NCBI RefSeq assembly: GCF_023016155.1
Contig: NZ_JALKBG010000008.1
Span: forward strand, 684,501 to 748,500
Source of the DNA: Aliiroseovarius sp. F20344
GTDB taxonomy: Bacteria; Pseudomonadota; Alphaproteobacteria; Rhodobacterales; Rhodobacteraceae
Direction: 5' to 3'
Length of the DNA stretch: 64,000 nt
Of this stretch, positions 9,246 through 27,653 are shown in pieces. The notes under the pieces are model-generated. The model did not search any database. It was given only the letters and a program-made list of their open reading frames with translations, and was not told the origin of the DNA. Every line of letters starts with the position of its first letter. Position 1 is the first letter of the stretch. The translations under genes were made by a program, and so were the position numbers.

Positions 9246-9342
9246 CTTGACGCTCTCCCTTGAAATAATGGTGGGCGGGCAGATTTGCCTCGGCCATCCT
9301 GTCAGTTTTCTGAATCTTTTTAGGCAGCGCAGGGCTTTGCCT

Positions 9343-9352: not shown

Positions 9353-9361
9353 TTGCGTTGG

Positions 9362-10852: not shown

Positions 10853-10855
10853 ATA

Positions 10856-10887: not shown

Positions 10888-10895
10888 TCAACCTC

Positions 10896-11198: not shown

Positions 11199-11290
11199 TG
11201 CGCGTTCCTTTTGTTCACATTGGCGAGAACAAATATAGAACAAAATGATTAATTGTCCAGTGCCCGCGGTTCACGTCGCGGTGATATCCC

Positions 11291-11881
11291 TTAGTTTCTG
11301 GGCTTTTCGAGCCGCCACGTCAGGTTTGCGCGCACCGCTGGCCATTCCGACGCGATGATCGAATAAACCGCTGTATCACGTAAAACGCCATTGCCCTGAT
11401 CCATGTGGCTGCGCAACACGCCATCCAGTTTTGCGCCAAGACGCTCGATCGCAGCGCGGCTCTGGTGGTTCATGAAGTGGGTTCGAAGTTCGACCGCGAT
11501 GCACCCCAGATCGTCGAAGGCATAAGAAAGAAGCAGCCTTTTCGCCTCGGCGTTCAGAAGGCTGCGTTGTACGGATTTCCGATACCAGGTTGATCCGATC
11601 TCGACCCGTTTGTTGATGGCGTCGATATTCATGAAGGTTGTCATGCCGACAGGTGTGCCATCTGGCGTCATCACGCAAAAGGGCAGCATGGTGCCAGCAT
11701 CTTGCAACGCCAAACGCCGTGTGATTTCGGTTTCCATGTTTTTAGGCGTGGGCACGGTAGTGTACCAAAGGCGATGCAATGCGCCTACTGCGCTAGCCTC
11801 TTTCAAGGCAGGGGCATGTTCCAAGCTCAGAGGGGCGAGTGTGACGTGATCGCCAGAAAGCGTGACAGGTGCAGGCCACAT
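11291..11881 (-). CDS. GNAT-family N-acetyltransferase (RimJ/RimL type)
   Basis: 196 aa acetyl-CoA-dependent acyltransferase. The fold signature includes the strand/loop TWYRKSVQRSLLNAEAKRLLLSYAF and the C-terminal region MNHQSRAAIERLGAKLDGVLRSH typical of RimJ/RimL-like proteins, which acetylate N-termini or small molecules. The ATG at 11881 is preferred over an upstream in-frame codon because AGGA lies a few bases upstream and homology begins there. It sits between tpa and tauR with its own spacing; substrate unknown. Confidence 0.8.
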   Translation of the reverse strand: MWPAPVTLSGDHVTLAPLSLEHAPALKEASAVGALHRLWYTTVPTPKNMETEITRRLALQDAGTMLPFCVMTPDGTPVGMTTFMNIDAINKRVEIGSTWYRKSVQRSLLNAEAKRLLLSYAFDDLGCIAVELRTHFMNHQSRAAIERLGAKLDGVLRSHMDQGNGVLRDTAVYSIIASEWPAVRANLTWRLEKPRN

Positions 11882-11917
11882 GGCAGAAATCCTTTTTAAT
11901 TCTACTGTCTCAAACAA

Positions 11918-11945
11918 AAGGCGGCCCCGATGAAAGGACCGCCTT
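11918..11945 (-). terminator. Intrinsic terminator after tpa
   Basis: Ten-position stem (AAGGCGGTCC / GGGGCCGCCTT on the minus strand, one mismatch) with a 7-8-nt loop, followed on the minus strand by TTTTGTTT. It lies 33 bp past the tpa stop codon and just before the GNAT gene. Confidence 0.75.
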
Positions 11946-11977
11946 CATAGCGCACACTATGGTAAATCAGTGATTGT

Positions 11978-13375: not shown

Positions 13376-13469
13376 CGGTTCCTCCATCGGCATGATGTTC
13401 CCCGTGCGAAGCGGGCCGTGGGAACAGAGATTCTTTGATCAAATATCTTCTCGGAATTCTGAAACGAAA

Positions 13470-13501: not shown

Positions 13502-13614
13502 TCGTGGCGTAGGCTGGGCTGTTTGGCAGTTGCAAATAGTTTGCCGCACAGGAAAGGCATCACGGTTTTCTTTTGAAGGCTGGAATTTACGGCTGGATTT
13601 GCTTAACTCATCCC

Positions 13615-14265
13615 ATGGCTGGCCAAACTGAAATCGTATTGAACGCAATCTTGTCCGGGATCGACAAAGGGGATTTGTCGCCGGGGGAAGCGATTGACGA
13701 AAACGCGCTGATTGCGCGTTACGAGGTGTCGCGTACTCCGCTACGCGAGGCGTTGCTTCGGCTTGAAGCAATGGGTTTGATCGTCCGCCCCCCGCGCAAA
13801 GGGGCCGTGCTGTTCAAGCCCAGTTTTGAAGAGTTCCTTGCGATCCTAGAGGTTAACGCCCAGCTGGAAGGTCAGGCGGCGGGGCTGGCCGCGCGCCGGA
13901 TAGGGGCGGAAGGCGGCGAAAATCTGCTGAGTGTCGTAGAGGCATGCGAAAAACATGCGCTTGAGAAGGGCGATGATGACCCAAACGCCTATTACGCGCT
14001 GAACCTAGAGTTTCACAAACAAGTGGCCAAAGCGTCCGGCAATCCGTTCCTTCTGGACATGATCAAGATGAATGGGCGCAAGCTTTTGGCTTATTATCGG
14101 GCGCGCTATCGCAATCCCGGGGCAATTGCTGAAAGCGCGCGAGAGCACCGCCAGATCGCCGAGCTGATCTTGGCCCATGACGCGGATCGCGCACACGCGC
14201 TAATGTCTGAACATGTGCTGTTCGACCAAGTGACAGTTATGGATTTGCTGGCAGCACTTGGGTAG
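13615..14265 (+). CDS. GntR-family transcriptional regulator (FCD domain)
   Basis: 216 aa: N-terminal winged helix (residues ~1-70; ENALIARYEVSRTPLREALLRLEAMGL) and a C-terminal all-helical FCD ligand-binding domain (LNLEFHKQVAKASGNPFL and SAREHRQIAELI contribute the Asn/His metal-ligand positions). FCD regulators sense organic acids. The ATG at 13615 begins at the start of homology; an upstream in-frame codon (13573) would add 14 atypical residues. It is divergent from tpa and convergent with the amidotransferase gene, so it may control tpa or, more likely given the AT-rich palindrome at 15025, the P450 cluster. Confidence 0.85.
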   Translation: MAGQTEIVLNAILSGIDKGDLSPGEAIDENALIARYEVSRTPLREALLRLEAMGLIVRPPRKGAVLFKPSFEEFLAILEVNAQLEGQAAGLAARRIGAEGGENLLSVVEACEKHALEKGDDDPNAYYALNLEFHKQVAKASGNPFLLDMIKMNGRKLLAYYRARYRNPGAIAESAREHRQIAELILAHDADRAHALMSEHVLFDQVTVMDLLAALG

Positions 14266-14280: not shown

Positions 14281-14997
14281 TCAGGTTTGCGCTTGATTTG
14301 CGTGTTCAAAGAACCGCGCAATCCAAGATGCAAAAATTGGGCCATCCGCCAATAGACGAAGCGACTCGCGGGCATGGGTAATAACTTCCGCCGGCTTGTT
14401 ATCTTCAAGTTCGTCGATCAATGCGCTGATAAATCCGCGTGTCATTTCTGGATGGTTTTGGGTGGTGAAGATGTGATTCCCGATGCGGAAGCCACCAATA
14501 GGGCAGCCTTCTGACATCATGATGTTTGTTGCCCCTTTGGGCATTTGGGTCACTTGTTCGATATGCGCGCCGTAAAGCCAGAAGCGTTTCACCTCGACCC
14601 ATGGGGCAGCTTCAGTGATCTCCATCTCGGTCGACCCGAAAATCCAACCATCGGGGTTGGTCCCGATCTTTCCGCCCAAGGCTTTGGCGATGGCTTGATG
14701 GCCAAAGCACGCGCCGAACAGGGGGCGTTTCTGATCGTGCAGTTTCTGGATAAGATCGGCCAGATCGTTCATCCATGGCTCTTCATCTTGGACGGATGCC
14801 GGGCTGCCAGTGACTACAAACCCATCAAACTTGTCCAGTTTTTTGGGGAATTTGCCATCCTTTACCGAAAACACCGTGTACTTCCAGTCAGGACGCTTTT
14901 TTGACAAAAGCTCGATCCACTTTTCGCCGTCCTTTGGATGAAGCTGTGCGAATTCGCTTTCATCCGTGTTGGTCATCAGGATTGCGATGTGCATCAT
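14281..14997 (-). CDS. Class I glutamine amidotransferase-like hydrolase
   Basis: 238 aa stand-alone class I GATase domain. Nucleophile Cys in the elbow GACFGHQAIA; His and Glu of the triad in TQNHPEMT. No synthetase domain is attached. Comparable stand-alone proteins include PuuD (gamma-glutamyl-GABA hydrolase) and AtdA2 of aniline degradation, which act on gamma-glutamyl amides. The gene is divergent from P450-GS-ferredoxin with an 84-bp shared promoter region, so hydrolysis of a gamma-glutamylated amine or amino acid made by the GS-like enzyme at 16384 is the natural proposal (inference). Alternative: a generic GMP-synthase-like GATase paralogue. Confidence 0.8.
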   Translation of the reverse strand: MMHIAILMTNTDESEFAQLHPKDGEKWIELLSKKRPDWKYTVFSVKDGKFPKKLDKFDGFVVTGSPASVQDEEPWMNDLADLIQKLHDQKRPLFGACFGHQAIAKALGGKIGTNPDGWIFGSTEMEITEAAPWVEVKRFWLYGAHIEQVTQMPKGATNIMMSEGCPIGGFRIGNHIFTTQNHPEMTRGFISALIDELEDNKPAEVITHARESLRLLADGPIFASWIARFFEHANQAQT

Positions 14998-15024
14998 TTC
15001 GCCTCTTTACATAATTAACATGTT

Positions 15025-15041
15025 CTATAATATATTTATAG
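15025..15041. promoter_or_regulatory. Palindromic operator candidate between GATase and P450 genes
   Basis: Perfect inverted repeat CTATAA-TATAT-TTATAG in the 84-bp divergent intergenic region, inside an unusually AT-rich block. It could be bound by the FCD/GntR regulator encoded at 13615. Because it also resembles promoter -10 elements, the regulatory reading is tentative. Confidence 0.4.
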
Positions 15042-15081
15042 ACGCGCTGCACACAATAGCAAAAACGCCAGGGAGGTGCGC

Positions 15082-16341
15082 ATGACAGTCTGGACCCCAA
15101 ATGATGATGGATTTGCCGATCTGTCCAGTCACGATACGTTCGTAAATGGCGCACCGCACAACACATTCGCACGCTTGCGGCGTGAAGATCCGCTAAGCTG
15201 GACCGATTGGGATGGCGGGGAAGGCTTCTGGAACGTGGTTCGGCATGCGGATATTACCGAACTAAACCGGAACTATGAACTCATGTCCTCGGCCCGTGGT
15301 ATTCGGATGGAGGATCAGACCTACGAGGAATACCTGGCCCGTCGAACCTTTCAGGAAACCGATCCTCCCGAGCATATGAAGACCCGCGTGATGGTGGGTA
15401 AAGCGTTTTCGCGGCCTGTTGTTGCAGAGTTCGAAGATCAGATCCGCGAACTATGCCACCCCATTCTGGATGCCGCACTTGAGGCGGGCAGGTTCGACGC
15501 CACGAAGGTGATTGCGCGCCAGCTTCCCATGATGATGTTGGGGCGGATCATTGGAACGCCGGACGAAGACCTGCCGTGGCTGGTTGAGAAGGGTGACGCG
15601 CTGATCGCAAACACAGACCCGGATTTCACCGACCATGTGCTTGATAAGATGGAGACGGACGAATACCGGATGATGCCCTTCAACTCGCCTGCCGGGGCAG
15701 AGCTGTTCGACTACGCCAAAAAGCTAATCGAAGAAAAGAACCGCAAGGGCGACACGGATGGCGTGTTGCATATGATTATGAAGCCGGATCGTGACGGCAA
15801 CGTCATGCCGGAACAAGAATTCCGCAACTTCTTCTGTCTGCTTGTTGCTGCGGGCAATGACACCACGCGCTATTCGATTGCGGCAGGTATTCAGGCGATG
15901 GCACATCAGCAAGAATTGCTGGGTCAGATGCAGGAAGGCGGCGATATCTGGGCCACTGCGCCGGATGAGATTATCCGCTGGGCGACGCCCGCGCTATACT
16001 TCCGCCGCACCGCCACGCGCGATCACGAGATGCACGGGAAGCTGATCCGCGAAGGCGACAAAGTGCTTTACTGGTGGGCCTCTGCCAACCGCGATGAAGA
16101 GGTGTTCGACGACCCCAACCGCGTTGACCTGTTCCGAAGCCCCAACCGCCATATGTCCTTCGGGCAGGGTGGCCCTCATGTCTGTTTGGGCATGCATCTG
16201 GCTCGGCTTGAGGTGCGGGTTTTGTTCGAAGAACTGGCGAAACGCGTGAAAATGGTGGAACCTGCCGGGGATCACAAGTTCCTGCGCTCGAACTTCGTGG
16301 GTGGGATCAAGGAATTGCCTGTTACGATGCAGGCCAAGTAA
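15082..16341 (+). CDS. Cytochrome P450
   Basis: 419 aa soluble bacterial class I P450. I-helix oxygen-activation motif AAGNDTT, K-helix ExxR in EIIRWATP, and heme-thiolate loop FGQGGPHVCLG with the Cys ligand near the C-terminus. The ATG at 15082 is preferred over GTG at 15076 because GGAGG sits five bases upstream of the ATG. It is followed at 42 bp by a GS-like gene and then a [2Fe-2S] ferredoxin, the presumable electron donor; no ferredoxin reductase is present nearby. The P450-GS-like-ferredoxin combination recalls CYP151 (pipA/morA) of mycobacteria growing on piperidine, pyrrolidine and morpholine. Substrate is unproven. Confidence 0.93.
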   Translation: MTVWTPNDDGFADLSSHDTFVNGAPHNTFARLRREDPLSWTDWDGGEGFWNVVRHADITELNRNYELMSSARGIRMEDQTYEEYLARRTFQETDPPEHMKTRVMVGKAFSRPVVAEFEDQIRELCHPILDAALEAGRFDATKVIARQLPMMMLGRIIGTPDEDLPWLVEKGDALIANTDPDFTDHVLDKMETDEYRMMPFNSPAGAELFDYAKKLIEEKNRKGDTDGVLHMIMKPDRDGNVMPEQEFRNFFCLLVAAGNDTTRYSIAAGIQAMAHQQELLGQMQEGGDIWATAPDEIIRWATPALYFRRTATRDHEMHGKLIREGDKVLYWWASANRDEEVFDDPNRVDLFRSPNRHMSFGQGGPHVCLGMHLARLEVRVLFEELAKRVKMVEPAGDHKFLRSNFVGGIKELPVTMQAK

Positions 16342-16383
16342 CCCCAAAAGGGGACGACCCGGAAAACCGGGCAGGGAGGATTG

Positions 16384-17673
16384 ATGAAAGACCGTTTGCG
16401 GGCCCTTTGGCTCGATCACCTGAGTATTCTGCGCGGCAAGTATCTGCCCGGGTCAAAGATTGGCACCAGCGAGACGCGGTTTTGCCGATCCACCTATGGT
16501 GTGCATTACGACAAGGACCTTCTGGACGCGCCCGGCGCGATGATGAAGGAAGGCCTGCCGGACATGGAGCTGCGCTGGCGGGCGGAAGACATTCGCGAGG
16601 GGTGGGAGGCCTCGACGCAGATTGTCATTGGCGACCTGTATGACCAAGACGGCGTGCCGTTGGAGCTTTGCGGCCGTCAGGCACTGAAACGCGCGGTTGC
16701 GGCATGGGAAGAGCGCGGATTGACCCCGATGGTCGGGATCGAGCTGGAATGCTTCGCACTGATGGCAAATGAAATCGGCCGCCTTGTGCCCTATGACGCG
16801 CCGGGCGGTGTGGTTTACGGCACAGGCCCCTTCACCGATCCGCTGCGCTTCACCGACGACATCTGGGAACGGGCTGAGAAGCTGGGTTTCAATCTGGAAA
16901 TGATGACGGGCGAATATGACAGCCCTCAGTTCGAGTTCACCCTGACCTTTGATGAAGTGTTGAAACATGTGGATGACATTGTGCTCTTCCGCCAGATGGC
17001 CCGCGAAGTGGCGCTCGAACACGGGTTGGTCCTGACCTTTATGCCCAAACCGATTGCCGAGGCTGGTGGGTCAGGCATGCATATCAACTATAGCTTCCGG
17101 GATCGGTCAGGCGGCAACGCGCTGGACAATGGACCCGTGGGCGGGCCGGAGCATATGAACGATCTGGCGCGCGGCTGTATCGCGGGCTTGATGCATCACC
17201 ACAAAGGGCTGGCCGGACTGGTCGCACCGACGACAAATTCGTATCAGCGTTTGCAGCCGGGATCTCTGTCCGGGTACTGGCGCAACTGGGGCGGGGATCA
17301 CCGAAACGTCACCACGCGGATTTCTGGCGAAGGCGGCGCGAAGTCGCGGCTTGAACACCGAATGGCGGACGCGACTGCGAATCCATATACGGCTGTCGCG
17401 GCGGTTCTGCAGGCGTCCCTTCTAGGGCTTGAAAACAACTATCCGCTGGGCCCCATCGAAGGCGGTGACGGCTTTGATCGGACCGAAGCCAAGGAAGGCA
17501 CGGCAGTGAACCTGAAGGCCGCCATGAAGGACCTAGAGGCCGACACTGTGCTGGGCGATCGCGTGGGCCGGATGCTGGTGGATAACCATATTTTCATGAA
17601 ACGCAAAGAGGTCATCAAGACCCGTGATCTTGAGGGTGACGGGCTGCGTGATTTCTATGTGAACTTCGTCTAA
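16384..17673 (+). CDS. Glutamine-synthetase-family ligase (probable gamma-glutamyl-amine synthetase)
   Basis: 429 aa GS-fold ATP-dependent ligase. Visible GS elements are the metal Glu motif GIELECFAL, the GGSGMHIN His loop, the ATP/phosphate region RNVTTRISG and SRLEHRMADATANPY. It is closer in style to amine-specific homologues (gamma-glutamylmethylamide, -isopropylamide or -putrescine synthetases) than to housekeeping GlnA, lacking the usual adenylylation-loop sequence. Start at 16384, four bases after GGAGG. Lying between a P450 and a ferredoxin gene and opposite a GATase-like hydrolase, it is predicted to gamma-glutamylate an amine substrate or product. The specific amine is not deducible. 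Confidence 0.85.
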   Translation: MKDRLRALWLDHLSILRGKYLPGSKIGTSETRFCRSTYGVHYDKDLLDAPGAMMKEGLPDMELRWRAEDIREGWEASTQIVIGDLYDQDGVPLELCGRQALKRAVAAWEERGLTPMVGIELECFALMANEIGRLVPYDAPGGVVYGTGPFTDPLRFTDDIWERAEKLGFNLEMMTGEYDSPQFEFTLTFDEVLKHVDDIVLFRQMAREVALEHGLVLTFMPKPIAEAGGSGMHINYSFRDRSGGNALDNGPVGGPEHMNDLARGCIAGLMHHHKGLAGLVAPTTNSYQRLQPGSLSGYWRNWGGDHRNVTTRISGEGGAKSRLEHRMADATANPYTAVAAVLQASLLGLENNYPLGPIEGGDGFDRTEAKEGTAVNLKAAMKDLEADTVLGDRVGRMLVDNHIFMKRKEVIKTRDLEGDGLRDFYVNFV

Positions 17674-17699
17674 GCGACTTAAAAACAAGGAGATACGAG

Positions 17700-18011
17700 A
17701 TGAAAGTAACCTGGGTCTTGCCTGGGGGCGAGGAGGTTGTGGCTGATGTCCAGACGGGCGTGAACCTGATGGAAGCCGCTCAAGCGAACAATGTCGCCGG
17801 CATTCAGGGTGAATGCGGGGGCTCGCTGTCCTGCGCGACCTGTCATGTCCATGTGGATGGCGACTGGCTGTCGAAAACCGGCGCGAAGGGCGACTTTGAA
17901 GAGGCGATGCTCGATATGGCGGATGGTGAAGTCACCGATGCCTCGCGTCTGTCGTGCCAGATCGAGGCGTCAGACAATTTGGACGGGATCCGCCTGATCG
18001 TGCCGGTCTGA
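17700..18011 (+). CDS. [2Fe-2S] ferredoxin (adrenodoxin type)
   Basis: 103 aa. Cluster ligands are in ECGGSLSCATC (C-x5-C-x2-C), with the fourth Cys in RLSCQIE. The fold and C-terminal RLIVPV are typical of P450- or dioxygenase-linked ferredoxins. It lies 26 bp after the GS-like gene with a GGAG ribosome site and is most likely the electron donor to the P450 at 15082. A reductase must be supplied from elsewhere in the genome. Confidence 0.93.
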   Translation: MKVTWVLPGGEEVVADVQTGVNLMEAAQANNVAGIQGECGGSLSCATCHVHVDGDWLSKTGAKGDFEEAMLDMADGEVTDASRLSCQIEASDNLDGIRLIVPV

Positions 18012-18063
18012 AAGCGGACTACCTTCCTTTGTGATAAGATGATCTCAAAGGGAGGATGATCTT

Positions 18064-18432
18064 ATGCAATTGGGCGCGTTTTCTGTCAGTCTCGGGGTTA
18101 AGGATCTTGGCAAATCCAAGGCATTTTACGAGGCGCTGGGCTTCACCGCATATGCGGGAACCGAAGAGCATAATTACCTGATCATGAAAAACGGCGAGAC
18201 GCTGGTTGGGCTGTTTCAGGGGATGTTTGAAGGGGCGATGCTGACCTTCAATCCCGGCTGGGATCAGAACGCTTCGAATGTCGATCCGTTTGACGATGTG
18301 CGCGCGATCAAGGCGCAGCTTGCCGCCGCAGGGGTTGCGATCACACAAGAACAAGGTGGCGAAGATGGCCCTGCCAGCTTTGTCGTGGTGGATCCCGACG
18401 GGTTCCCGGTTTTGATCGATCAACACAGATGA
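18064..18432 (+). CDS. VOC-family (glyoxalase/dioxygenase fold) protein
   Basis: 122 aa single VOC module: SVSLGVKDLGKSKAFYEALGF at the start and FVVVDPDGFPVLIDQ at the end. Such proteins include glyoxalases, dioxygenases and resistance proteins; several retain only metal or ligand binding. It is last in the P450 operon by position (52-bp gap, GGGAGG upstream of the ATG) and is followed by a bidirectional terminator. No function can be given from sequence. Confidence 0.8.
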   Translation: MQLGAFSVSLGVKDLGKSKAFYEALGFTAYAGTEEHNYLIMKNGETLVGLFQGMFEGAMLTFNPGWDQNASNVDPFDDVRAIKAQLAAAGVAITQEQGGEDGPASFVVVDPDGFPVLIDQHR

Positions 18433-18479: not shown

Positions 18480-19832
18480 TCAGATCGCGGCAAAACCTGC
18501 CTTGAGCGCGGACAGGATGGTTTGCACATCCTCTGATGTGAGTACCAAAGGCGGAGACATGATCACGTTCGGGCCAGAGACGCGTACCATTGCGCCGTTT
18601 TGATAAGCGACCTCTTGCAGGGTGCCGATGCTGGCTTTGTCTATGGATGCTTTTGTGTCTTTGTCCGACACCAGCTCCAACGCGCACATCAAGCCGTGTC
18701 CGCCGCGCACGTCGCCGATGACGTCATACGCCGCGCCCAGTTCTTGCAACCCGGCGAACAATTCCGCCCCGCGGGCGGCGGCGTTTTCGTTCACCTTCAG
18801 ACGCAGAGTTTCTTCCATACATGCAATCGCCGCAGCTGCCCCAACCGGGTGGCCTGAGTAGGTGTATCCGTGCCCGATGGCGGCCTTGCCGGTCTCGTCT
18901 TTCTCAAAGGTTTCAACCACATGGTCGGCAATCATCACGGCGCCAAAAGGGAAGTATCCATTGGTGATCGCCTTGGCGGTGCACATGAAATCAGGCTGAA
19001 CGCCCCAGTAACGGCTCCCCGTCCAACCACCCGTGCGGCCGAAAGCGGTGATGACCTCATCTGCGATCAGAAGGATACCGTGACGCGAACAGATTTCGCG
19101 CACGCCGGGCATGAAGCTTTCATGGGGCGAGATTACGCCGCCTGCGCCCAGAATGGGTTCCATGATCATCGCGGCGATGGTGTCTGCGCCTTGGAAGGAA
19201 ATCTCGTCTTCCATCGCTTGCAGGCAAAGCTGGGCGAGGCGCTCGGGATCGGTTTCATTGAACGGATTGCGATAGGTGTAGGGCGCGGGGATATGATAGC
19301 AGCCGGGCAGAAGGGGCTCATACTGCGTGCGGAAATTGGCATTCCCGTTCACCGAGGCCCCGCCCATATGGGTGCCGTGATACCCCTTCTTCAAGCTCAG
19401 GAACTTGGTGCGGCCCGGTGCGCCTTTCACCTTGTGATACTGGCGTGCCAGACGCAGCGCGGTTTCCACACTGTCCGATCCACCCGAAGTATAAAACGCC
19501 CGTGTCAGCCCGTCCGGTGCAAAGAAATCCCGCAGGATCTCCGACAGCTCGATCACCTTGTCATTGGTGGTGCCGCGGAAAGTTGAATAGTAGGGCAGGG
19601 TGTCCAGCTGCGCAGAAATCGCGTCCTTAATGGGTTGGCATGAAAAGCCAAGGTTCACGTTCCACAGTCCACCCACAGCATCGACAACTTCGTGGCCATC
19701 CACATCTGTGATTTTCACACCAGAAGCTCCTGTGACAATGGTTGGCGGGTTCTTCAGGCAATCGGCGGGATGCGCCATAGGGTGCCAGAGCGAACGGGCG
19801 TTCTTTTCTTTCAGAAAGTTGGAATCTTTCAT
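18480..19832 (-). CDS. Class III (omega-) aminotransferase
   Basis: 450 aa PLP enzyme. Asp in LLIADEVITAFGRTG; PLP Lys in CTAKAITNGYFPFGA. It belongs to the omega-amino acid/pyruvate group, acting on terminal amines or omega-amino acids such as beta-alanine, GABA or diamines. The start ATG overlaps the stop of the upstream iclR gene (ATGA), so regulator and enzyme are co-translated. Together with the ALDH at 24043 and the amine genes at 14281-18432 it could deaminate an omega-amino acid intermediate (inference). Confidence 0.88.
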   Translation of the reverse strand: MKDSNFLKEKNARSLWHPMAHPADCLKNPPTIVTGASGVKITDVDGHEVVDAVGGLWNVNLGFSCQPIKDAISAQLDTLPYYSTFRGTTNDKVIELSEILRDFFAPDGLTRAFYTSGGSDSVETALRLARQYHKVKGAPGRTKFLSLKKGYHGTHMGGASVNGNANFRTQYEPLLPGCYHIPAPYTYRNPFNETDPERLAQLCLQAMEDEISFQGADTIAAMIMEPILGAGGVISPHESFMPGVREICSRHGILLIADEVITAFGRTGGWTGSRYWGVQPDFMCTAKAITNGYFPFGAVMIADHVVETFEKDETGKAAIGHGYTYSGHPVGAAAAIACMEETLRLKVNENAAARGAELFAGLQELGAAYDVIGDVRGGHGLMCALELVSDKDTKASIDKASIGTLQEVAYQNGAMVRVSGPNVIMSPPLVLTSEDVQTILSALKAGFAAI

Positions 19833-20635
19833 GTCAGCTCGCTTTCTGCAGGAGGTTCTGCGGGGGAAAATGTTGGAAAAGTGTCAGGAGGGAAACCGCC
19901 CAGAACACGCGTTGTCCGGCGGGCAGCAAGGGCAAGTTCGGTTTGGATCGTGGCGCGCAATTCGTCCGTTATGCGCGAGACCGGGGCCGCCACCGCCATC
20001 GCGCCGATGCATTGCGACCCGGCGTCGAAAATGGGCACAGCGTGGGAATAGACATCCCGTTCATAGCCGCCGATCGACCATGCCATCCCACGTTTGCGAA
20101 TTTTTGGTAGCAAAGCTTGAATGGCTGCAGGATCGGTGACGGTTTCCGGAGTGCGCGCGACTAGCGGTTTGCTTAGAATGGCGTCGACAAAGGGGGCAGG
20201 GGAAAAGGCTAGGACCGCCAGGCCCGAGCCGGTTGAATGAAGCTCTAGAACCTCGGCGTCTTCCATCATCACCATCGTCCCGTGCTTGTGTGCATAGCTA
20301 TAGGTGAGGTTGGACAGGACCTCTCCGTTCAAGAGCGACATATGAGAGGTTTCGCCGGTCAACCCGCTGAGTTTTGTCAGCTCGGCCAGCGCCAGTTCGC
20401 GCATCGGAACCGCTTTTTCGCGTAGGGCTGCGAGTCGCAGAAAGGCGGGGCCAAGACGGTATTCTCGGCCCGCGCCGACCTGCTCAACGAATCCATGATC
20501 GGCCAGTTCGCCCATAAGGCGATGCACAGTGGCCTTATTGATCCCAGACAGGCGGGCCATGTCGCTTAGCCCAATCTGAGGTTGCGATCGCGTGAAGTAG
20601 TTCAATAAGGACAACGCCTTAGAGGCCGTACCCAT
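19829..20635 (-). CDS. IclR-family transcriptional regulator
   Basis: 268 aa: N-terminal winged helix (SDMARLSGINKATVHRLMGELADHGFV) and a C-terminal IclR effector domain (residues ~75-250). It is divergent from tctCBA-ALDH and leads the aminotransferase operon, so it is placed to control both. The 173-bp intergenic region has two perfect palindromes. IclR proteins typically bind small organic acids; the ligand here is unknown. Confidence 0.9.
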   Translation of the reverse strand: MGTASKALSLLNYFTRSQPQIGLSDMARLSGINKATVHRLMGELADHGFVEQVGAGREYRLGPAFLRLAALREKAVPMRELALAELTKLSGLTGETSHMSLLNGEVLSNLTYSYAHKHGTMVMMEDAEVLELHSTGSGLAVLAFSPAPFVDAILSKPLVARTPETVTDPAAIQALLPKIRKRGMAWSIGGYERDVYSHAVPIFDAGSQCIGAMAVAAPVSRITDELRATIQTELALAARRTTRVLGGFPPDTFPTFSPAEPPAESELT

Positions 20636-20808: not shown

Positions 20809-21750
20809 ATGAACACCAAATCCATTCTGGCTGGCGCGCTGGCCGTAACCGCATCCATGATGGCTGCACCTGCCATGGCTGAATATCCGGAAAAGCCGGT
20901 CAGCTTCATTGTGCCGTGGCCTCCGGGTGATCTTGAAGACGTTCTGACGCGTATGATCGCTGAGGATTTTCAGGCAGAGTACGGCGTGTCGGCGGCTGTC
21001 GTGAACAAGCCCGGTGGCGGCGGTGGCCCATTCCCCGGCGCAATTGACGTCGCAACGGCCCCGGCAGATGGCTACACCATCGGCAGCTTCGTGCCCGCCG
21101 TGCCCGTCATCGGCCACGAGATTGGAATTGACGAACTGGCGCCTGCCAAGTTCGACCCGATTGGCATATTCTTGACCTATCCGTTCGTGATCGCCACAAA
21201 GGGCGACGCGCCCTACAGCTCGATGGAAGAGCTGGCCGCTTATGCGAAAGAAAACGACGTAGCGCTGGGTCACTTCGGGGACGTCCTGACACCAACACAG
21301 GTGACCAAAGCCTATTCGAAGAACGCTGGCTTTGAGTGGGGGTCGGACGCAGCCTTTGACGCGTTGGACTGTAACACGCTGGCCTCGGGCGACGCGGATG
21401 TGATCAACACCACGCTGCAACTGATCCTGCCTTGCCTTGACGACGTGAAGGTGCTGATGGCTGTCACCGACGAACGCATCAGCCTTGTGCCCGACACGCC
21501 GACCATCGGCGAGCTGGATGAAAGCCTGAACATCGCGCTTTGGAACGGTCTGTTCGTGACCAAGGATACACCGGCTGATGTGCGCGAGAAGATCGCCGCC
21601 GTCGCGTCCAAAACCGTGATGAGCGAACGTGCGCAGGCGGTTGCCAAGGAAACCGGCGCGCTGGTTTACTGGATGGATGCTGAAGCTTCGGCAGCACGCA
21701 TCGCCACGGATCAGGAAACTGGTGCGGCGATCGGCAAGATCCTCGAATAA
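20809..21750 (+). CDS. TctC-type periplasmic solute-binding protein
   Basis: 313 aa. Signal peptide residues 1-24 (ASMMAAPAMA cleaved before EYPEKP), then the Bug/TctC fold (VSFIVPWPPGD, VVNKPGGGG). It binds a carboxylate or related solute for the tripartite tricarboxylate transporter. First gene of a tctC-tctB-tctA-ALDH-Tm-1 operon under apparent IclR control. Substrate of Bug proteins cannot be predicted reliably. Confidence 0.9.
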   Translation: MNTKSILAGALAVTASMMAAPAMAEYPEKPVSFIVPWPPGDLEDVLTRMIAEDFQAEYGVSAAVVNKPGGGGGPFPGAIDVATAPADGYTIGSFVPAVPVIGHEIGIDELAPAKFDPIGIFLTYPFVIATKGDAPYSSMEELAAYAKENDVALGHFGDVLTPTQVTKAYSKNAGFEWGSDAAFDALDCNTLASGDADVINTTLQLILPCLDDVKVLMAVTDERISLVPDTPTIGELDESLNIALWNGLFVTKDTPADVREKIAAVASKTVMSERAQAVAKETGALVYWMDAEASAARIATDQETGAAIGKILE

Positions 21751-21840
21751 CGACTGGACGAATAATACGCTCGGGGCTGGCTTTGGCTGGCCCCGCGTTA
21801 CGCACAGACCGACCTTCTGGCGCAAGGAATGCCCTCTGAA

Positions 21841-22530
21841 ATGAGCGATGAGATTATTGAACATCCTGATCGGCCCCAGCGGGGTCAGGTGTTGTTCGCG
21901 GCCCTGTTTCTGATTTGTGCGACGCTTCTGTTGGCGGCCATAGGGGATCAGACCAAGTGGCTGAAGGGAAAAGACTTTTTTGCGCAACCCCGGTTTTGGC
22001 CGGGAATTGGCGTGGGCGGCATGGTGCTGTTCACGGCGCTGCATTTCTGGCACCTGCCACGCAAACAACGCCGCCTTCCTAGGTGGATGCGTGAGGCAGA
22101 TTGGTTCCAATGGGCGGAAAGTCTGTTCTGGGCATTTCTTGCGGCAGGTCTGGCACTGTGGCTTGGCCCAATTGCAGCGGCGCCGATGGTGTTTCTGGTC
22201 GCCGTGATCCGCGTTACATGGCTTTATCAACACTGGACGGACCGACGTGAGGCGAAGGTTTGGGCCTCGGTCTTTGAATGGGCCGGATGGTTCTTGGCCT
22301 ATGTGCTGTTGGTGCCGATCATTGGCTACCTGCCCGTAACAATGGTGTTTGCCCCGATACTGACATGGCGGGTTGGGTATCGCTCGCGTCTGATGCTCTG
22401 GACGTCGGTCGTTTTTGCCGTTGTGGTCGTGCTGATTTTCAAAAGCTTCCTGCAAGTGAAAATCCCTGGGGCTGCGCTTTATGAATACCTGCCGGGCGCG
22501 CTGCGTTCGTTCTTTATCCTGAATTTCTGA
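21841..22530 (+). CDS. TctB-like small membrane subunit
   Basis: About 229 aa with four to five hydrophobic segments; corresponds to the small TctB membrane protein of the tripartite transporter, though longer than the usual ~150-170 aa. ATG codons at 21829 and 21841 are in frame; the AAGGA directly abuts 21829 and lies ~12 bases before 21841, so 21841 (MSDEIIEHP) is chosen with reservation. Sequence conservation in this family is low; identity is supported by its place between tctC and tctA. Confidence 0.75.
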   Translation: MSDEIIEHPDRPQRGQVLFAALFLICATLLLAAIGDQTKWLKGKDFFAQPRFWPGIGVGGMVLFTALHFWHLPRKQRRLPRWMREADWFQWAESLFWAFLAAGLALWLGPIAAAPMVFLVAVIRVTWLYQHWTDRREAKVWASVFEWAGWFLAYVLLVPIIGYLPVTMVFAPILTWRVGYRSRLMLWTSVVFAVVVVLIFKSFLQVKIPGAALYEYLPGALRSFFILNF

Positions 22531-22537
22531 GGGCCTC

Positions 22538-24178
22538 ATGGATCTTATCTACGATTTCCTCACACAGGTGCAGGCCTCGTCATCGTACCTAGCACGATGG
22601 GACGTGGTGCTCGCCCTTCTGGTGGGCTCTGTCGGCGGTGTGCTGATCGGCGCAATCCCCGGTGTAGGACCTGCGGTTGCCATCGCGATCTTGCTGCCCG
22701 CGACATTTTCCATGGACCCCATCGTGGGGCTGACGGTGCTTTTGGGTATTTACGGCAGTTCGATGTATGGGGGCTCGATCCCCGCGATACTGATCAACAC
22801 GCCGGGCACGGCGGTGAACGCGCTGACCACCTATGACGGCTTCCCTATGACCACGCGGGGCGAGGCACGGCGCGCACTGTCGCTGGCCTATAGCTCGTCT
22901 TTCTTTGGGGGCATCTTTTCTGTCGTCTGCCTGATCCTATTCGCCCCGATCTTGGCGAAAATCGCGCCCATGTTTGGTTCGCGTGAAATCTTCTTGGCAG
23001 CGCTTTTGGGGATCATTCTGGTCGTTACGGCGCATCGCAAACACACGCTGATTGCCGCCGCCATGGCGTGCTTTGGCATTTGGTTGAACACGATCGGCTT
23101 GCACCCGGCGAGCTACTCAAAACGCTATACGTTTGACCAAAGCTGGTTGTCGGGCGGGGTGAACCTGATCGTCGTGGTGCTGGGCCTTTTTGCTTTGAGC
23201 CAAGCCTTTACGCTGTTGCATGGCGACGACGAGAAAGTGCGCCTGACCAAGCTAAAAGGCAGCTTCTTTCAGGGTTTCCGAGAACTCGCCCGCCACCCGC
23301 GCATCGCGGGTATCTCGGCCACGTTCGGTGTGGTGATGGGCATGATCCCGGGCGTGGGCGAGTTCACCGCGCAGTTCATGTCTTACACCTATGCGCAGAA
23401 GTCTTCGAAACGGCCTGAGGATTTTGGACATGGCTCATCCGAAGGCTTGATCGCAGCCGAGACTGCCAACAACGCCGTCCCCGGTGCCGCCATGGTGCCG
23501 CTTCTGGCGCTGGGCATTCCGGGCGAGGCGCTGACGGCGATGATGCTGTCTGTCTTCTATGTCCACAATGTCATCCCCGGCCCACAGCTGTTCCAGAATG
23601 ACATGGACTTTGTGGTTGCGCTCTACCTCGCGCTTTTGATCCTGAACGTGCTGGTGGTGGCTTTCCTTTTGGTGGCAACCAACCAGCTGATTAAAGTGGT
23701 GAAGATTCCCAATCGCTTTCTGGGCGTCTGCATCCTGATCCTCAGCTTCGTGGGCGTCTACAGCCTTCGCAATTCGCTGACCGATTGCATCGTCGCAGCA
23801 GCCTTTGGCATTTTCGGCTTCATCATGAAACGCATGCAACTGCCCGTCGTGCCCATCGTCTTGGGCATGGTTCTGGGCGGCATCATGGAAGTGAAACTGC
23901 GCAGCGCCATGGCGCGCGTGAAGACCCCTCTTGATTTCATTGATCGCCCCATTGCGGCGATACTGTTTGGAATGATTGTCCTAGTCCTTCTCCTGCATTT
24001 CCGCCGGGTTTGGCTGGACTACAAAGAAAGAAAGACTGACGAATGGCAGACCAGTCACGCATCAACGAGCTTTCCCGCAATCCTGTCGCGCCGCAGAAAC
24101 TATATATTGACGGAGCGTGGAAAGAAGCTGAGGGCGAAGCGCAAGACGTTCTCTCGCCGATTGACGGACAACGACTGA
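22538..24178 (+). CDS. TctA-type large transporter subunit
   Basis: 546 aa polytopic membrane protein. The conserved TctA signatures are intact: GAIPGVGPAVAIAILLP, YGGSIPAILINTPGT, GMIPGVGEFTAQF and PLLALGIPGEALTAMM. About 12 hydrophobic segments form the channel for the TctC ligand. The last ~46 residues (after LHFRRVWLDYKERKTDE) are highly basic, unlike the family, and overlap the first 136 bp of the ALDH gene in another frame. A frameshift near 24000 would move the stop to 24037, just before the ALDH start, which is the more usual arrangement. Confidence 0.88.
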   Translation: MDLIYDFLTQVQASSSYLARWDVVLALLVGSVGGVLIGAIPGVGPAVAIAILLPATFSMDPIVGLTVLLGIYGSSMYGGSIPAILINTPGTAVNALTTYDGFPMTTRGEARRALSLAYSSSFFGGIFSVVCLILFAPILAKIAPMFGSREIFLAALLGIILVVTAHRKHTLIAAAMACFGIWLNTIGLHPASYSKRYTFDQSWLSGGVNLIVVVLGLFALSQAFTLLHGDDEKVRLTKLKGSFFQGFRELARHPRIAGISATFGVVMGMIPGVGEFTAQFMSYTYAQKSSKRPEDFGHGSSEGLIAAETANNAVPGAAMVPLLALGIPGEALTAMMLSVFYVHNVIPGPQLFQNDMDFVVALYLALLILNVLVVAFLLVATNQLIKVVKIPNRFLGVCILILSFVGVYSLRNSLTDCIVAAAFGIFGFIMKRMQLPVVPIVLGMVLGGIMEVKLRSAMARVKTPLDFIDRPIAAILFGMIVLVLLLHFRRVWLDYKERKTDEWQTSHASTSFPAILSRRRNYILTERGKKLRAKRKTFSRRLTDND

Positions 24179-25527
24179 CCACAATCGCGCGGGCGTCCGC
24201 TGCGGATGTGGATCGGGCTGTGGCGGCAGCACGGCGGGCGTTTGACGATGGACGCTGGTCACGCGCAGCCCCAGCGCATCGCAAGAAGGTTCTGCACAAA
24301 TTGGCGGACTTGATTGAGCAGAATGCTCTGGAACTGGCGGTTCTGGGCGTGCGCGACAATGGGACCGAAATTGGTATGGCCCTGAAAGCCGAACCCGGTT
24401 CGGCGGCGGGCACCTTCCGTTACTATGCCGAGGCTTTGGACAAAGTATATGGCGAGATAGCCCCGACCGCGCCCGGCATCTTGGGCCTTGTCCACAAGGA
24501 ACCCGTGGGCGTTGTTGGTGCGATTGTGCCGTGGAACTTCCCGCTGATGATTGGCGCGTGGAAACTGGCGCCTGCACTGGCGGCGGGCAATTCGGTCGTG
24601 TTGAAACCCGCCGAAACCGCCTCCCTGACTTTGCTTCGGCTGGCCGAATTGGCCAGCGAAGCCGGATTGCCCGATGGTGTCTTGAACGTCGTCACCGGGG
24701 CCGGGTCCGTCACGGGCGAGGCGCTGGCCATGTCCATGGACGTTGACGTTCTGGTCTTTACCGGATCGGGCGGGGTCGGGCGGCGGCTGTTGGAATACTC
24801 GGCCCGCTCGAACCTGAAACGCTGCTATCTGGAATTGGGCGGCAAATCCCCCAACGTGGTCTTCGCGGACGCGCCGGATTTGGAGCAAGCGGCCAAGGTC
24901 TCGGCTGCGGGGATCTTTCGCAATGCGGGGCAGGTGTGCGTGGCCGGGTCTCGTTTGCTGGTTGAGGACAGTATCCACGACGAATTTGTCGAGGCGCTGT
25001 CACGCCAAGCCGCTGCCATGAAAGTTGGCAATCCGCTGGATCTGACCACCAACATCGGTGCTGTGAATAATCTGACGCAGCTGGAAGGCAATTTGAGCTT
25101 CGTGACGAAAGCCGTGGATGAGGGTGCCGAGATTGCACTTGGCGGCACGCGGATCATGGAAGACACGGGCGGCTATTTCATGGAGCCGACCGTGCTGAAA
25201 GGCGTAAAGCCTGAGCACAATGTGGCCCAAAACGAAGTCTTCGGGCCGGTGCTGGCCGTCACGCCGTTCAAGACGGATGAAGAAGCGGTCGCCATCGCCA
25301 ATTCGACGAATTTCGGTTTGGCTGCAGGGGTTTGGACCTCAAACCTCAGCCGCGCGCATAACATGGTGCGCGACATTCAAGCGGGCGTCGTGCACGTGAA
25401 CACCTACGGTGGCGCGGATGGCACCGTTCCCTTGGGCGGTGTCAAGCAATCGGGCAATGGCCATGACAAGTCGATGCACGCCTTCGATAAGTATTTCGAC
25501 CTCAAAACAGCATGGATGCAGCTATGA
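24043..25527 (+). CDS. NAD(P)-dependent aldehyde dehydrogenase
   Basis: 494 aa, ALDH superfamily, oxidising an aldehyde to its acid. Catalytic Cys in GQVCVAGSR, general-base Glu in LELGGKSPN, cofactor motif GAIVPWNFPLM. Full length with the typical start (KLYIDGAW within the first 25 residues). It starts inside the apparent tctA 3' end and overlaps the next gene by ATGA. It resembles aminoaldehyde/betaine-aldehyde-type ALDHs; the aldehyde is unknown but an amino- or gamma-glutamylamino-aldehyde would fit the neighbouring P450/GS genes (inference). Confidence 0.92.
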   Translation: MADQSRINELSRNPVAPQKLYIDGAWKEAEGEAQDVLSPIDGQRLTTIARASAADVDRAVAAARRAFDDGRWSRAAPAHRKKVLHKLADLIEQNALELAVLGVRDNGTEIGMALKAEPGSAAGTFRYYAEALDKVYGEIAPTAPGILGLVHKEPVGVVGAIVPWNFPLMIGAWKLAPALAAGNSVVLKPAETASLTLLRLAELASEAGLPDGVLNVVTGAGSVTGEALAMSMDVDVLVFTGSGGVGRRLLEYSARSNLKRCYLELGGKSPNVVFADAPDLEQAAKVSAAGIFRNAGQVCVAGSRLLVEDSIHDEFVEALSRQAAAMKVGNPLDLTTNIGAVNNLTQLEGNLSFVTKAVDEGAEIALGGTRIMEDTGGYFMEPTVLKGVKPEHNVAQNEVFGPVLAVTPFKTDEEAVAIANSTNFGLAAGVWTSNLSRAHNMVRDIQAGVVHVNTYGGADGTVPLGGVKQSGNGHDKSMHAFDKYFDLKTAWMQL

Positions 25528-26756
25528 GCGACAAGACAATTCTGGTCGTTGGGACCTATGACACCAAAGATGACGAGTTGAACTATATTGCCGATGTGAT
25601 CCGGGCGCATGGTGGTGGGGTGGCGACGATGGACATCTCGGTTCTGGGTGATCCAAGCGCGCCGTGCGATTATTCCAAACATGATGTGGCCGAGGCGGGT
25701 GGTTCCTCTATCAAGGCGGCCATTGACAGCGGGGACGAGAACACCGCGATGCAGATCATGGCGCAAGGCTCTGCCGCTTTGGCGTTGAAACTCTACCGTG
25801 AAGGCGTGTTTGACGGTCTGATCGTGCTGGGTGGCACAATGGGCACGGACGCGGCACTGGATCTGTGTCAGGCGTTGCCGATTGGGGTGCCGAAATACGT
25901 TGTGTCCACTGTCAGCTTCTCGCCCCTGATCCCACCGGAACGTCTTCCTGCGGATGTGCAGATGATCTTGTGGGCGGGGGGGCTTTACGGGTTGAACTCG
26001 ATCTGCAAAGCGTCGTTGTCACAAGCCGCCGGAGCCGTTCTGGGTGCTGCAAGAGCAGTGGAAAAACCTGCTACCAAAAAGCCGCTCATCGGAATGACCA
26101 GCTTCGGGAAAACCGTGCTGCGCTATATGGTCAGTCTGAAACCTGCTCTGGAGGAACGAGGGTTTGAGGTTGCGGTGTTCCACGCCACGGGCATGGGTGG
26201 ACGGGCCTTTGAAAGCTTGGCCGCGGAAGGCGCTTTTGCCGCCGTTCTGGATTTCGCGCCGCAAGAGCTGGGCAATCACATTATGGGATCCACGATCTCT
26301 GCCGGTCCCGACAGAATGACCAATGCGGGCGCGTCTGGTACGCCGCAAATGGTGTCCATTGGCTGCTATGACCTTGTGGATTTTATCGGCTGGCAGGACG
26401 TCCCGCAGAAACTGGCAGGGCAAGAAGTGCACGCGCATAACCGGCTGCTGTCATCGGTGATGATGACACCTGACCAACGGCGCGAGATGGCGCGGGCCAT
26501 GTGCACACAACTTGCAGGCGCGAAAGGTCCGGTGCACCTTATCCTACCACTTCAGGGCGGCAACGAATGGGATCGACCTGGTGGCCCGCTGCACGACGCC
26601 GAAGGGCTTTCGGCGTTTATCGACGAGATCCGTGCACATTGCCCAGACAACTTGACCTTGATCGAGCTGGACGCGCATATCAACGACGCCGCATTTTCGG
26701 ATCGGGTCCTGGCCGAGTTCGATGCATGGGTCGCGGCAGGAACCGTATCGACCTGA
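25524..26756 (+). CDS. Tm-1-like ATP-binding domain protein (UPF0261)
   Basis: 410 aa. The N-terminal half carries the Tm-1-like nucleotide-binding domain (ILVVGTYDTKDDELNYIADVI, LGGTMGTDAALDLC) and the C-terminal half the TIM-barrel-like UPF0261 region (GMTSFGKTVLRYM, PLQGGNEWDRPGGPLHD). The family is named after tomato Tm-1; bacterial function is unknown but members are often in catabolic operons with transporters. The start at 25524 overlaps the ALDH stop (ATGA), so it is coupled to that enzyme. Confidence 0.85.
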   Translation: MSDKTILVVGTYDTKDDELNYIADVIRAHGGGVATMDISVLGDPSAPCDYSKHDVAEAGGSSIKAAIDSGDENTAMQIMAQGSAALALKLYREGVFDGLIVLGGTMGTDAALDLCQALPIGVPKYVVSTVSFSPLIPPERLPADVQMILWAGGLYGLNSICKASLSQAAGAVLGAARAVEKPATKKPLIGMTSFGKTVLRYMVSLKPALEERGFEVAVFHATGMGGRAFESLAAEGAFAAVLDFAPQELGNHIMGSTISAGPDRMTNAGASGTPQMVSIGCYDLVDFIGWQDVPQKLAGQEVHAHNRLLSSVMMTPDQRREMARAMCTQLAGAKGPVHLILPLQGGNEWDRPGGPLHDAEGLSAFIDEIRAHCPDNLTLIELDAHINDAAFSDRVLAEFDAWVAAGTVST

Positions 26757-26830
26757 GACAACTTGTTGCACCTGCAATGATTTGCAATTTAGACGAGACG
26801 GGTATTTACTACCAGTGTTAAGGAGTGAAC

Positions 26831-27277
26831 ATGCCACACCTGTCTTTCGAATACAGCAACGGGCTGGGCCAGCAAGCGGATTTGCCAGCACTGGCCGAAA
26901 CCATACGCGCTGCACTGGTCGCCACGGGGCAATGCCCCATTGGTGGCATCCGCGTGCGTGGGTTCGAAGCTGACATCGACGCCATTGGCGACGGGGCAGG
27001 CGGGTATCACTTCATCGATATGATCCTAAGGCTTGGGCAGGGACGGGACGAGGCCACGCGCGAGGCCATCGCCGACACCCTATACAGCGCGGTTGAGGAC
27101 GCGCTGCGCCCACAGATGGGCGACACGCCTTTCATTCTTAGTCTTGAGGTTCAGGAAATTGAAACCCGCTTCAGTCGCAAAGGCTGGAGCACGATCCACG
27201 CGGCCATCCGCGGAAGGACACAAGATGATGAAGAAACTCGATCGCGCGCTGCCACTGGCTCTTCTCCACGCCCGTGA
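26831..27277 (+). CDS. 5-carboxymethyl-2-hydroxymuconate isomerase-like tautomerase
   Basis: 148 aa; the mature protein would start with catalytic Pro-1 (MPHLSFEYS), as in the tautomerase superfamily member HpaF/HpcD of homoprotocatechuate degradation. AAGGAG lies five bases before the ATG at 26831, deciding against GTG at 26825. The body matches the ~126-aa family; about 20 extra C-terminal residues overlap the downstream MarR gene by 53 bp. No other homoprotocatechuate genes are in the window. Confidence 0.8.
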   Translation: MPHLSFEYSNGLGQQADLPALAETIRAALVATGQCPIGGIRVRGFEADIDAIGDGAGGYHFIDMILRLGQGRDEATREAIADTLYSAVEDALRPQMGDTPFILSLEVQEIETRFSRKGWSTIHAAIRGRTQDDEETRSRAATGSSPRP

Positions 27278-27653
27278 GGCAACCCTCAAACCATTTCGCC
27301 ACGAACTGGACCAGATTGGCTTAACCGTTCAACAATGGCGCGTGATCCGCGTGCTGGCCGAGGGCAAAGCCTGCTGCGCCACAGAACTGGCCGAACGCTG
27401 CGTCTTGATGCCGCCCAGCCTGTCGCGCATCCTGAAAACACTGACTGAACAGAAGCTGATCGAACGGGTCGAAGACAGCGACGCACGCCGACGTCGGGTG
27501 CAGATATCGTCAGTAGGTCGGGAAAAATACGCCACCATGGCCGGGAAAGCCGCGGACATCTACGAAGACCTCGAAACCCGCTTCGGAACCGAGAAGATGG
27601 AAACTCTGCTGGACCTACTGAACGAGCTTTACGACGTGGCAAAAGTGGCCTGA
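27225..27653 (+). CDS. MarR-family regulator, HpaR-like
   Basis: 142 aa winged-helix regulator (LTVQQWRVIRVLAEG, ATELAERCVLMPPSLSRILKTL, DSDARRRRVQISSVG). The N-terminal region (LDRALPLALLHAREATLKPFR) resembles HpaR/HpcR, the repressor of homoprotocatechuate catabolism, and it follows an hpaF-like gene. GGA six bases before the ATG at 27225 sets the start; the gene overlaps the tautomerase gene by 53 bp. The specific regulon is inferred. Confidence 0.83.
   Translation: MMKKLDRALPLALLHAREATLKPFRHELDQIGLTVQQWRVIRVLAEGKACCATELAERCVLMPPSLSRILKTLTEQKLIERVEDSDARRRRVQISSVGREKYATMAGKAADIYEDLETRFGTEKMETLLDLLNELYDVAKVA

Follow-up and report, generated by a model that had tools for sequence, protein, structure and literature searches.

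A conserved ligase, P450 and amidotransferase gene module accompanies homoprotocatechuate catabolism and may feed it through glutamyl-masked hydroxylation of an aromatic amine

The 64,000-nucleotide stretch of DNA from Aliiroseovarius sp. F20344 analysed here (contig NZ_JALKBG010000008.1, positions 684,501 to 748,500 of the forward strand; referred to as the window in the rest of the paper) carries within positions 14281-18432 the genes for a stand-alone class I glutamine-amidotransferase-like protein (GATase), a cytochrome P450, a glutamine synthetase (GS)-like amine ligase (GSL), a [2Fe-2S] ferredoxin and a VOC/glyoxalase-fold protein (Table 1). A previous interpretation of the letters alone, hereafter the sequence-only reading, had placed these five genes here, and all five are present with their catalytic residues intact. 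The unit exceeds this interval, with a GntR/FCD regulator gene (gntR) upstream and, downstream, genes coding for a class III aminotransferase (AT2), an IclR regulator, the transporter TctCBA, an aldehyde dehydrogenase (ALDH) and a UPF0261 protein, joined in the window by hpaF and an hpaR-like gene of homoprotocatechuate (HPC; 3,4-dihydroxyphenylacetate) catabolism.

We surveyed 60 full-length named loci, out of 80 that had been kept as the best of 93 confirmed. In all 60, the genes for P450 and GATase are no more than 4 kb away from GSL, which agrees with the single conserved unit that had been proposed, and gntR is equally close in 54. AT2 is found in 45 of these loci, IclR in 46, the Tct genes in 45-46 (TctA in 45) and ALDH in 43, while ferredoxin occurs with GSL in 39. 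The VOC gene, which the sequence-only reading had counted as a core part, accompanies GSL in 9 of the 60 and appears accessory. A co-occurrence survey had been suggested: among 295 genomes, one per genus code, GSL (E≤1e-60) was found in 59 and the P450 of the module (E≤1e-100) in 57, with both together in 56; in the 57th genome with the P450 (G166), the match is just a fragment located where a contig ends. Because unnamed and named loci coincide in at least 12 pairs, some organisms are counted twice in the mixed row counts given below for residues, the gap element and hpa linkage; the counts over 60 loci and over 295 genomes are free of this mixing. The module is real and conserved, and no artefact.

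This module accompanies HPC catabolism. An HPC ring-cleavage dioxygenase, called by TIGR02295 above its cut-off or as the LigB type at E≤1e-60, was detected in 56 of the 59 GSL-positive genomes vs 47 of the 236 GSL-negative ones (one genome per genus code, P = 8e-28, Fisher test). The three GSL-positive exceptions (G069, G155 and G181) are assemblies in 300, 370 and 100 contigs, respectively, and G181 is 86% complete. In loci L121 and L130, which belong to a second GSL clade (~48% identity), GATase, P450 and GSL share one row of genes with hpaH, hpaG, a gene for a decarboxylase of the 3,4-dihydroxyphenylalanine (DOPA)/tyrosine type, hpaD and hpaE; in L121, HpaE (749 bits) and HpaD (411 bits) score above their cut-offs and HpaH (342 bits) slightly below. 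Other loci of the second clade are without some or all hpa genes nearby. The row hpaE-hpaD-hpaG-hpaH-hpaI immediately precedes gntR-GATase-P450-GSL-ferredoxin in L094, a decarboxylase-hpaI pair stands ahead of gntR in L060-L062, L066, L091 and L136 (the HpaI-like protein of L060 reaches 338 bits, cut-off 369), and L160 and L161 hold the module, the AT2 block and hpa genes on a single stretch, the GSL of L161 lying by its coordinates just beyond the stretch end. The operon of the window, on contig C8, terminates in hpaF-hpaR, with hpaF (65.8 bits against NCBIfam PRK15031, under the cut-off of 215) being the sole gene for a 5-carboxymethyl-2-hydroxymuconate isomerase above the Pfam cut-off in this genome. 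Further members of the meta-cleavage pathway hpaDEFGHI are encoded elsewhere in the same genome, on contig C6, where HpaH, HpaD_Fe (TIGR02298, 344.5 bits, cut-off 316), HpaE and HpaR score above their cut-offs and an HpaG-like protein below.

The classic entry into the HPC pathway is 4-hydroxyphenylacetate via HpaBC. Here, HpaB, called by PF03241 at E≤1e-20, was not found in the genome of the window, nor in 51 further GSL-positive genomes (52/59 altogether). It was detected in 7 of the 59 GSL-positive vs 21 of the 236 GSL-negative genomes (8/47 of those with an HPC dioxygenase and 13/189 of the others); this lack of enrichment serves as a partial control for the co-occurrence of the module with the HPC dioxygenase. 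The rule that an HpaB-positive genome should be GSL-negative was rejected as a test, since these counts do not discriminate.

AT2 was sought in 80 of the 295 genomes and the decarboxylase in 130 (80 + 50). AT2 was present in all 12 GSL-positive genomes, in 38 of 47 GSL-negative genomes with an HPC dioxygenase and in 1 of 21 other genomes. AT2 thus goes along with the HPC pathway in GSL-positive and GSL-negative genomes alike, so that the module has the look of an addition placed upstream of it. The decarboxylase of L121 has DOPA and tyrosine decarboxylases as its best solved relatives, and relatives of it occur in 39 of 40 GSL-positive genomes, 31 of 40 GSL-negative genomes with an HPC dioxygenase and 12 of 50 others; in the 80 genomes of the first two groups, 70 of which have the decarboxylase, its gene is no further than 3 kb from that of the HPC dioxygenase in at least 30 and no further than 8 kb from GSL in 5.

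The sequence-only reading took the ligase to be no ordinary glutamine synthetase, and this held. E. coli GlnA and the GlnA of the window's own genome separate from GSL at 100/100, the ammonium-site Glu327 is replaced by Leu in 24 (the window copy being of this kind) and by Met in 5 of 29 family rows, and the window GSL carries Phe where GlnA has its adenylylated Tyr397, for which reasons GlnA was rejected as an assignment. Comparison with PuuA and IpuC had been proposed as well; GSL groups with neither, forming instead its own 16-row clade (100/100), in a tree whose deeper forks are open, in which several reference rows sit on long branches and in which PuuA and IpuC are the only references of the glutamyl organic amine ligase (GoaS) type. 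PuuA, ~30% identical to GSL, joins the paralogue L002 of the window's own genome, a join that is unsure, with long branches meeting. PDB chain 8wwu (listed as 'Glutamine synthetase') is a distant match to GSL at E 2.5e-24, and our guess is that it represents NpaA1. All 29 family rows keep E129, E131, E212, E220, H269, R321, R339, R344, R355, E357 and R359, which we take to be the metal, ATP and glutamate sites of GS. The D50 column, in a poorly aligned loop, holds Asp (as in the window), Asn, Pro, Thr or Glu. Glu327 is also absent from PuuA (Tyr) and IpuC (Trp). Glu357 is retained in the GSL family, unlike in GoaS, for which the part of PMC11335346 consulted names it as a residue lost. The active-site pattern is compatible with an amine ligase.

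The catalytic residues of the partner proteins are conserved in the rows that fell within set length ranges: the heme Cys370 and the I-helix pair Asp262-Thr263 of the P450 are kept in 107/107 rows, the GATase catalytic triad Cys97/His182/Glu184 in 106, 105 and 105 of 106, respectively, and the four Cys of the ferredoxin in 69/69. The closest solved relatives of the P450 are CYP125MRCA, CYP268A2 and CYP124, which say little on its substrate. For the GATase, the top solved relative is gamma-glutamyl peptidase 1; since this fits the breakage of a gamma-glutamyl bond, we propose that the protein acts as a gamma-glutamyl-amide hydrolase. We likewise propose that the P450 hydroxylates a gamma-glutamyl aromatic amide, with the 2Fe-2S ferredoxin as its probable electron donor. 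The GATase alone was rejected as a marker of the module: stretches with GATase relatives in genomes G213, G064, G239 and G209 show no match to GSL or the P450, although two of the four (L168 and L170) are truncated by their contigs; the gene of L167 and that of L169 lie among apparent acyl-CoA metabolism and other genes, as named from sequence starts.

A gamma-glutamyl-amide route, as the sequence-only reading had put forward, is the natural reading of such a gene set, and comparison with known systems suggests its order. The claim that no described pathway has this exact set had to be dropped, as in Paenarthrobacter (Arthrobacter) aurescens TC1 the plasmids pTC1 and pTC2 have ipuC clustered with genes for a glutamine amidotransferase, a P450, a ferredoxin and a ferredoxin reductase. 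According to the part of PMC6776027 consulted, IpuC forms gamma-glutamyl-isopropylamide, the P450 system converts it to gamma-glutamyl-L-alaninol, and a postulated amidotransferase frees L-alaninol. This isopropylamine pathway of Pseudomonas KIE171 and A. aurescens TC1, whose amidotransferase is of the IpuF type, supplies the logic ligase, P450, amidotransferase; the four-part set is therefore of a known kind in which the ligase comes before the P450. It differs from the window in having its own ferredoxin reductase, of which none was seen in the window unit, while the latter has HPC catabolic genes, an aminotransferase and a Tct transporter. IpuC of pTC1 and pTC2 forms with an Aminobacter protein a clade of its own (95/99) apart from GSL, and the Ipu P450s likewise group by themselves (100/100), without the window P450, which is 26-27% identical to them. 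Membership in Ipu was thus rejected for both ligase and P450; most likely, to judge from gene content and trees, the module works like the Ipu route without belonging to it.

Two other pathways share part of the set. Those for aniline and 1-naphthylamine (AtdA1A2, NpaA1A2) have a GS-like ligase and a GAT-like protein, and the consulted part of PMC11335346 describes the NpaA3A4A5 oxygenase as acting on gamma-glutamyl-1-naphthylamine, that is, on a gamma-glutamyl arylamide. Their oxygenase is a Rieske dioxygenase whereas that of the window is a P450, on which ground membership in Atd was rejected. The Puu putrescine pathway of E. coli (PuuA, PuuD, PuuC and PuuB) resembles the window in its logic of ligase, gamma-glutamyl hydrolase, ALDH and aminotransferase, but its oxidase is PuuB rather than a P450, and membership was rejected as PuuA stands outside the GSL clade.

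Taking the HPC link and the Ipu logic together, we hypothesize that the module carries out an HPC-feeding, glutamyl-masked hydroxylation of an aromatic amine, most likely tyramine, a reading to which we give about an even chance of being right. TctCBA would import the substrate, and GSL would use ATP to couple glutamate to an aromatic ethylamine, tyramine being the likeliest. The P450, supplied by the 2Fe-2S ferredoxin, would then hydroxylate the ring of the gamma-glutamyl amide, and the GATase-like hydrolase would strip the glutamate, thereby freeing dopamine. AT2, acting as a dopamine-type amine transaminase, and ALDH, oxidizing 3,4-dihydroxyphenylacetaldehyde, could take dopamine to HPC for degradation by HpaD/E/F/G/H/I. 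The glutamate mask would keep AT2 off tyramine until the ring has been hydroxylated and so avoid 4-hydroxyphenylacetate, a possible dead end where HpaB is absent. Starting from DOPA, a base route through dopamine and 3,4-dihydroxyphenylacetaldehyde could reach HPC with just the decarboxylase, AT2 and ALDH, and to this the P450 module would add an entry for an amine without one ring hydroxyl, that is, tyramine. The substrate, the reactions and their order are all inferred, and tyramine is preferred over 3-methoxytyramine or phenethylamine for the sole reason that the decarboxylase resembles DOPA and tyrosine decarboxylases. Tyramine respiration, recorded in the consulted part of PMC4148982 as positive for Phaeobacter inhibens DSM 17395 and negative for P. 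gallaeciensis CIP 105210, was not used as evidence.

Several observations weigh against this proposal. Physical linkage is sparse: of the 60 full-length named loci, only 10 have hpa or decarboxylase genes at a distance of up to 9 kb, and 3 of these qualify through hpaF alone, with or without hpaR. Of 40 GSL-positive genomes compared, 7 showed the HPC dioxygenase within 15 kb of GSL, and in the other 33 it was not found at that distance, these distance counts being lower bounds with LigB-type places used for 7 genomes only. The second-clade GSL stands apart from or opposite the P450 in L122, L124 and L126, and 21 of the 60 full-length named loci gave no ferredoxin match. AT2 and the decarboxylase are also present without the module and, for this reason, leave its substrate unfixed. 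The mirror result expected for HpaB is missing too, as 39 of the 47 GSL-negative genomes with an HPC dioxygenase gave no HpaB match. Because these genomes are mostly without HpaB as well, its absence does not mark the P450 as its replacement, and other hydroxylases or entry compounds must therefore exist. Finally, the module of Ruegeria TM1040 adjoins paaABCDE, which would fit phenethylamine or phenylacetate.

The last of these points favours a variant of the same masked pathway, in which the P450 would O-demethylate a methoxylated amine such as 3-methoxytyramine or hydroxylate phenethylamine. Dopamine would result for AT2, ALDH and the HPC pathway as well, and no specific counter-evidence was found, although no search for formaldehyde-handling genes was made; we regard this variant as rather unlikely. 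We also consider it unlikely that the module follows an Ipu-like alkylamine route, with a small aliphatic amine glutamylated, a side-chain carbon hydroxylated and an amino alcohol released, the HPC link then being coincidental or regulatory. The same four gene families in the pTC1 and pTC2 ipu clusters speak for it, but the separate clades of ligase and P450, the strong HPC association and the lack of an annotated alcohol dehydrogenase in the TM1040 unit all argue against it. A non-catabolic role, in which reactive catecholamines would be detoxified or stored as gamma-glutamyl conjugates and the P450 would act on something else, is less probable again: a GS-like ligase and a hydrolase can run a reversible conjugate pool, and genomes linked to HPC would presumably face dopamine quinones, but the tight conservation of P450, GSL and GATase in 60/60 loci argues for a single pathway.

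We know of no GATase, aminotransferase or HPC link for the pip/mor cluster, in which a CYP151 P450 stands beside ferredoxin-type and GS-like genes, a neighbourhood also seen for the P450 of the window. The order favoured by the sequence-only reading, with a CYP151-like P450 first opening or dealkylating a secondary or cyclic amine and the ligase then masking the product, recalls the GS gene and the ferredoxin-type neighbour of pipA-like P450s in the pip-type cluster of Gulosibacter (PMC9477822, in the part consulted) and would suit the GntR neighbour in the window, but it appears very improbable, since no identified linked gene suggests cyclic amines and the genomic links (HPC ring cleavage, AT2 and decarboxylase) indicate an aromatic amine instead.

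We return to glutamyl-masked hydroxylation as the preferred reading. In its full form, a tyrosine/tyramine route widespread in marine Rhodobacterales would run from tyramine through gamma-glutamyl-tyramine, gamma-glutamyl-dopamine and dopamine to HPC, with glutamate protecting the amine until it is taken off again and the P450 hydroxylating the ring at position 3, in the role that HpaBC plays elsewhere; this extended version is tentative, and we would sooner expect some part of it to fail than the whole to hold. If true, the reading would assign a function to a gene set present in about 1 in 5 sampled genera of the family (59/295) and explain HPC access in marine bacteria without HpaB. Gamma-glutamyl-dependent amine catabolism, in which P450s are paired with alkylamines and Rieske dioxygenases with arylamines, would gain a third combination of oxygenase and substrate. 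It also predicts two specific intermediates, gamma-glutamyl-tyramine and gamma-glutamyl-dopamine. Titles and abstract starts in the open-licence literature yielded neither bacterial catabolism of these two compounds nor a tyramine, dopamine or HPC pathway with a P450 and a GS. While the four-part set is already known as a kind from Ipu, the HPC link of the module is a new result.

Table 1. Features of the module and its surroundings in the window (window coordinates)
Feature	Position	Strand	Family or model	Remark
GntR/FCD regulator (gntR)	13573..14265	+	PF00392 + PF07729	beside the module; start probably ATG 13615, because orthologues begin MAGQT
Stand-alone class I glutamine-amidotransferase-like protein (GATase)	14281..14997	-	PF00117	
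Promoter/operator-like element in the GATase-P450 gap	15005..15038	+		conserved half-sites; putative function
Cytochrome P450	15076..16341	+	PF00067	start probably ATG 15082, from orthologue comparison
GS-like amine ligase (GSL), GS catalytic domain protein	16381..17673	+	PF00120	start probably ATG 16384, from orthologue comparison
[2Fe-2S] ferredoxin, ISC/adrenodoxin type	17700..18011	+	PF00111	
VOC/glyoxalase-fold protein	18064..18432	+	PF00903	accessory
Class III aminotransferase (AT2)	18480..19832	-	PRK07481	above cut-off
IclR regulator	19829..20635	-	PF09339 + PF01614	
TctC-TctB-TctA tripartite tricarboxylate-type transporter	20809..24178	+	PF03401, PF07331, PF01970	open reading frames 20809-21750, 21829-22530 and 22538-24178
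Aldehyde dehydrogenase (ALDH)	24043..25527	+	PF00171	top NCBIfam models PuuC, aminobutyraldehyde dehydrogenase and StyD, each under its own cut-off
UPF0261/Tm-1-like ATP-binding protein	25512..26756	+	PF06792 + PF23189	
hpaF, 5-carboxymethyl-2-hydroxymuconate isomerase	26825..27277	+	PF02962, 107 bits	start probably ATG 26831
hpaR-like MarR regulator	27249..27653	+	TIGR02337, 120.7 bits	cut-off 121.2

The gap between the divergent GATase and P450 genes holds an element with the consensus TTTACATATTTA-N11-AATATA, the window copy of which has one mismatch in the left half. With mismatches allowed, both half-sites occur in 69 of 77 GATase-P450 gaps, and the 11-base spacing in 61. Across 2.29 Mb of loci, partly redundant, the strict pattern gave 54 matches; of these, 50 were counted in GATase-P450 gaps, and the remaining 4 sit, by position, in the GATase-P450 gaps of L063, L138, L156 and L157; it was unmatched in the window, L116 and L153. 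The element could combine the promoter of the P450 gene with an operator for GntR. An operator common to the P450 promoter and an hpa operon was rejected, as no copy of the strict element turned up in L153, a weak test given that the window and L116 fail the strict form too.

Single loci depart from the general layout. The P450 of Pseudophaeobacter leonis (L063, 7602-8842) matches in two pieces and may carry a frameshift there, and in Ruegeria TM1040 a gene for an FkbM-type methyltransferase (L116, 15430-16176) occupies the ferredoxin slot after GSL. The UPF0261/Tm-1-like protein lies inside the aromatic-amine unit in 36 of the 60 full-length named loci. A conserved protein encoded near the hpa genes of L121 (832-1878), and also in L109, L110, L126 and L129, matches nothing in NCBIfam at E≤1e-10 or in Pfam at E≤1e-5.

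A taurine-type cluster adjoins the module in the window (6362-13393), with xsc (sulfoacetaldehyde acetyltransferase, above cut-off), a MocR-type regulator, a phosphotransacetylase and a class III aminotransferase. Its genes (xsc, tpa) were rejected as pathway members, xsc being near the module in just 9 of the 60 full-length named loci. Two phosphotransacetylase-like genes stand tail to tail at 5491-6369 (+) and 6362-7366 (-), of which just the second scores above the Pta cut-off. Past the hpaR end of the operon, the window codes for a Hint-domain protein (PF13403, 28189-29235).

Related gene rows of other clades were also seen. Sagittula stellata has a further GS-GATase-P450 row with aromatic ring-hydroxylating dioxygenase genes nearby, and Novosphingobium humi a similar one (L146, 5920-9227, and L165, 7189-10221); both are probably further glutamyl-masked oxidation systems. 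P450-GS pairs occur in Streptomyces canus, Embleya and Novosphingobium EMRT-2 (L145, L163, L164 and L117). In S. canus and EMRT-2 the pair stands among aromatic-degradation genes, which speaks for the preferred reading, and ring-cleavage-type genes lie nearby in both and in one of the two Embleya loci, a hint that this chemistry also exists beyond Rhodobacterales.

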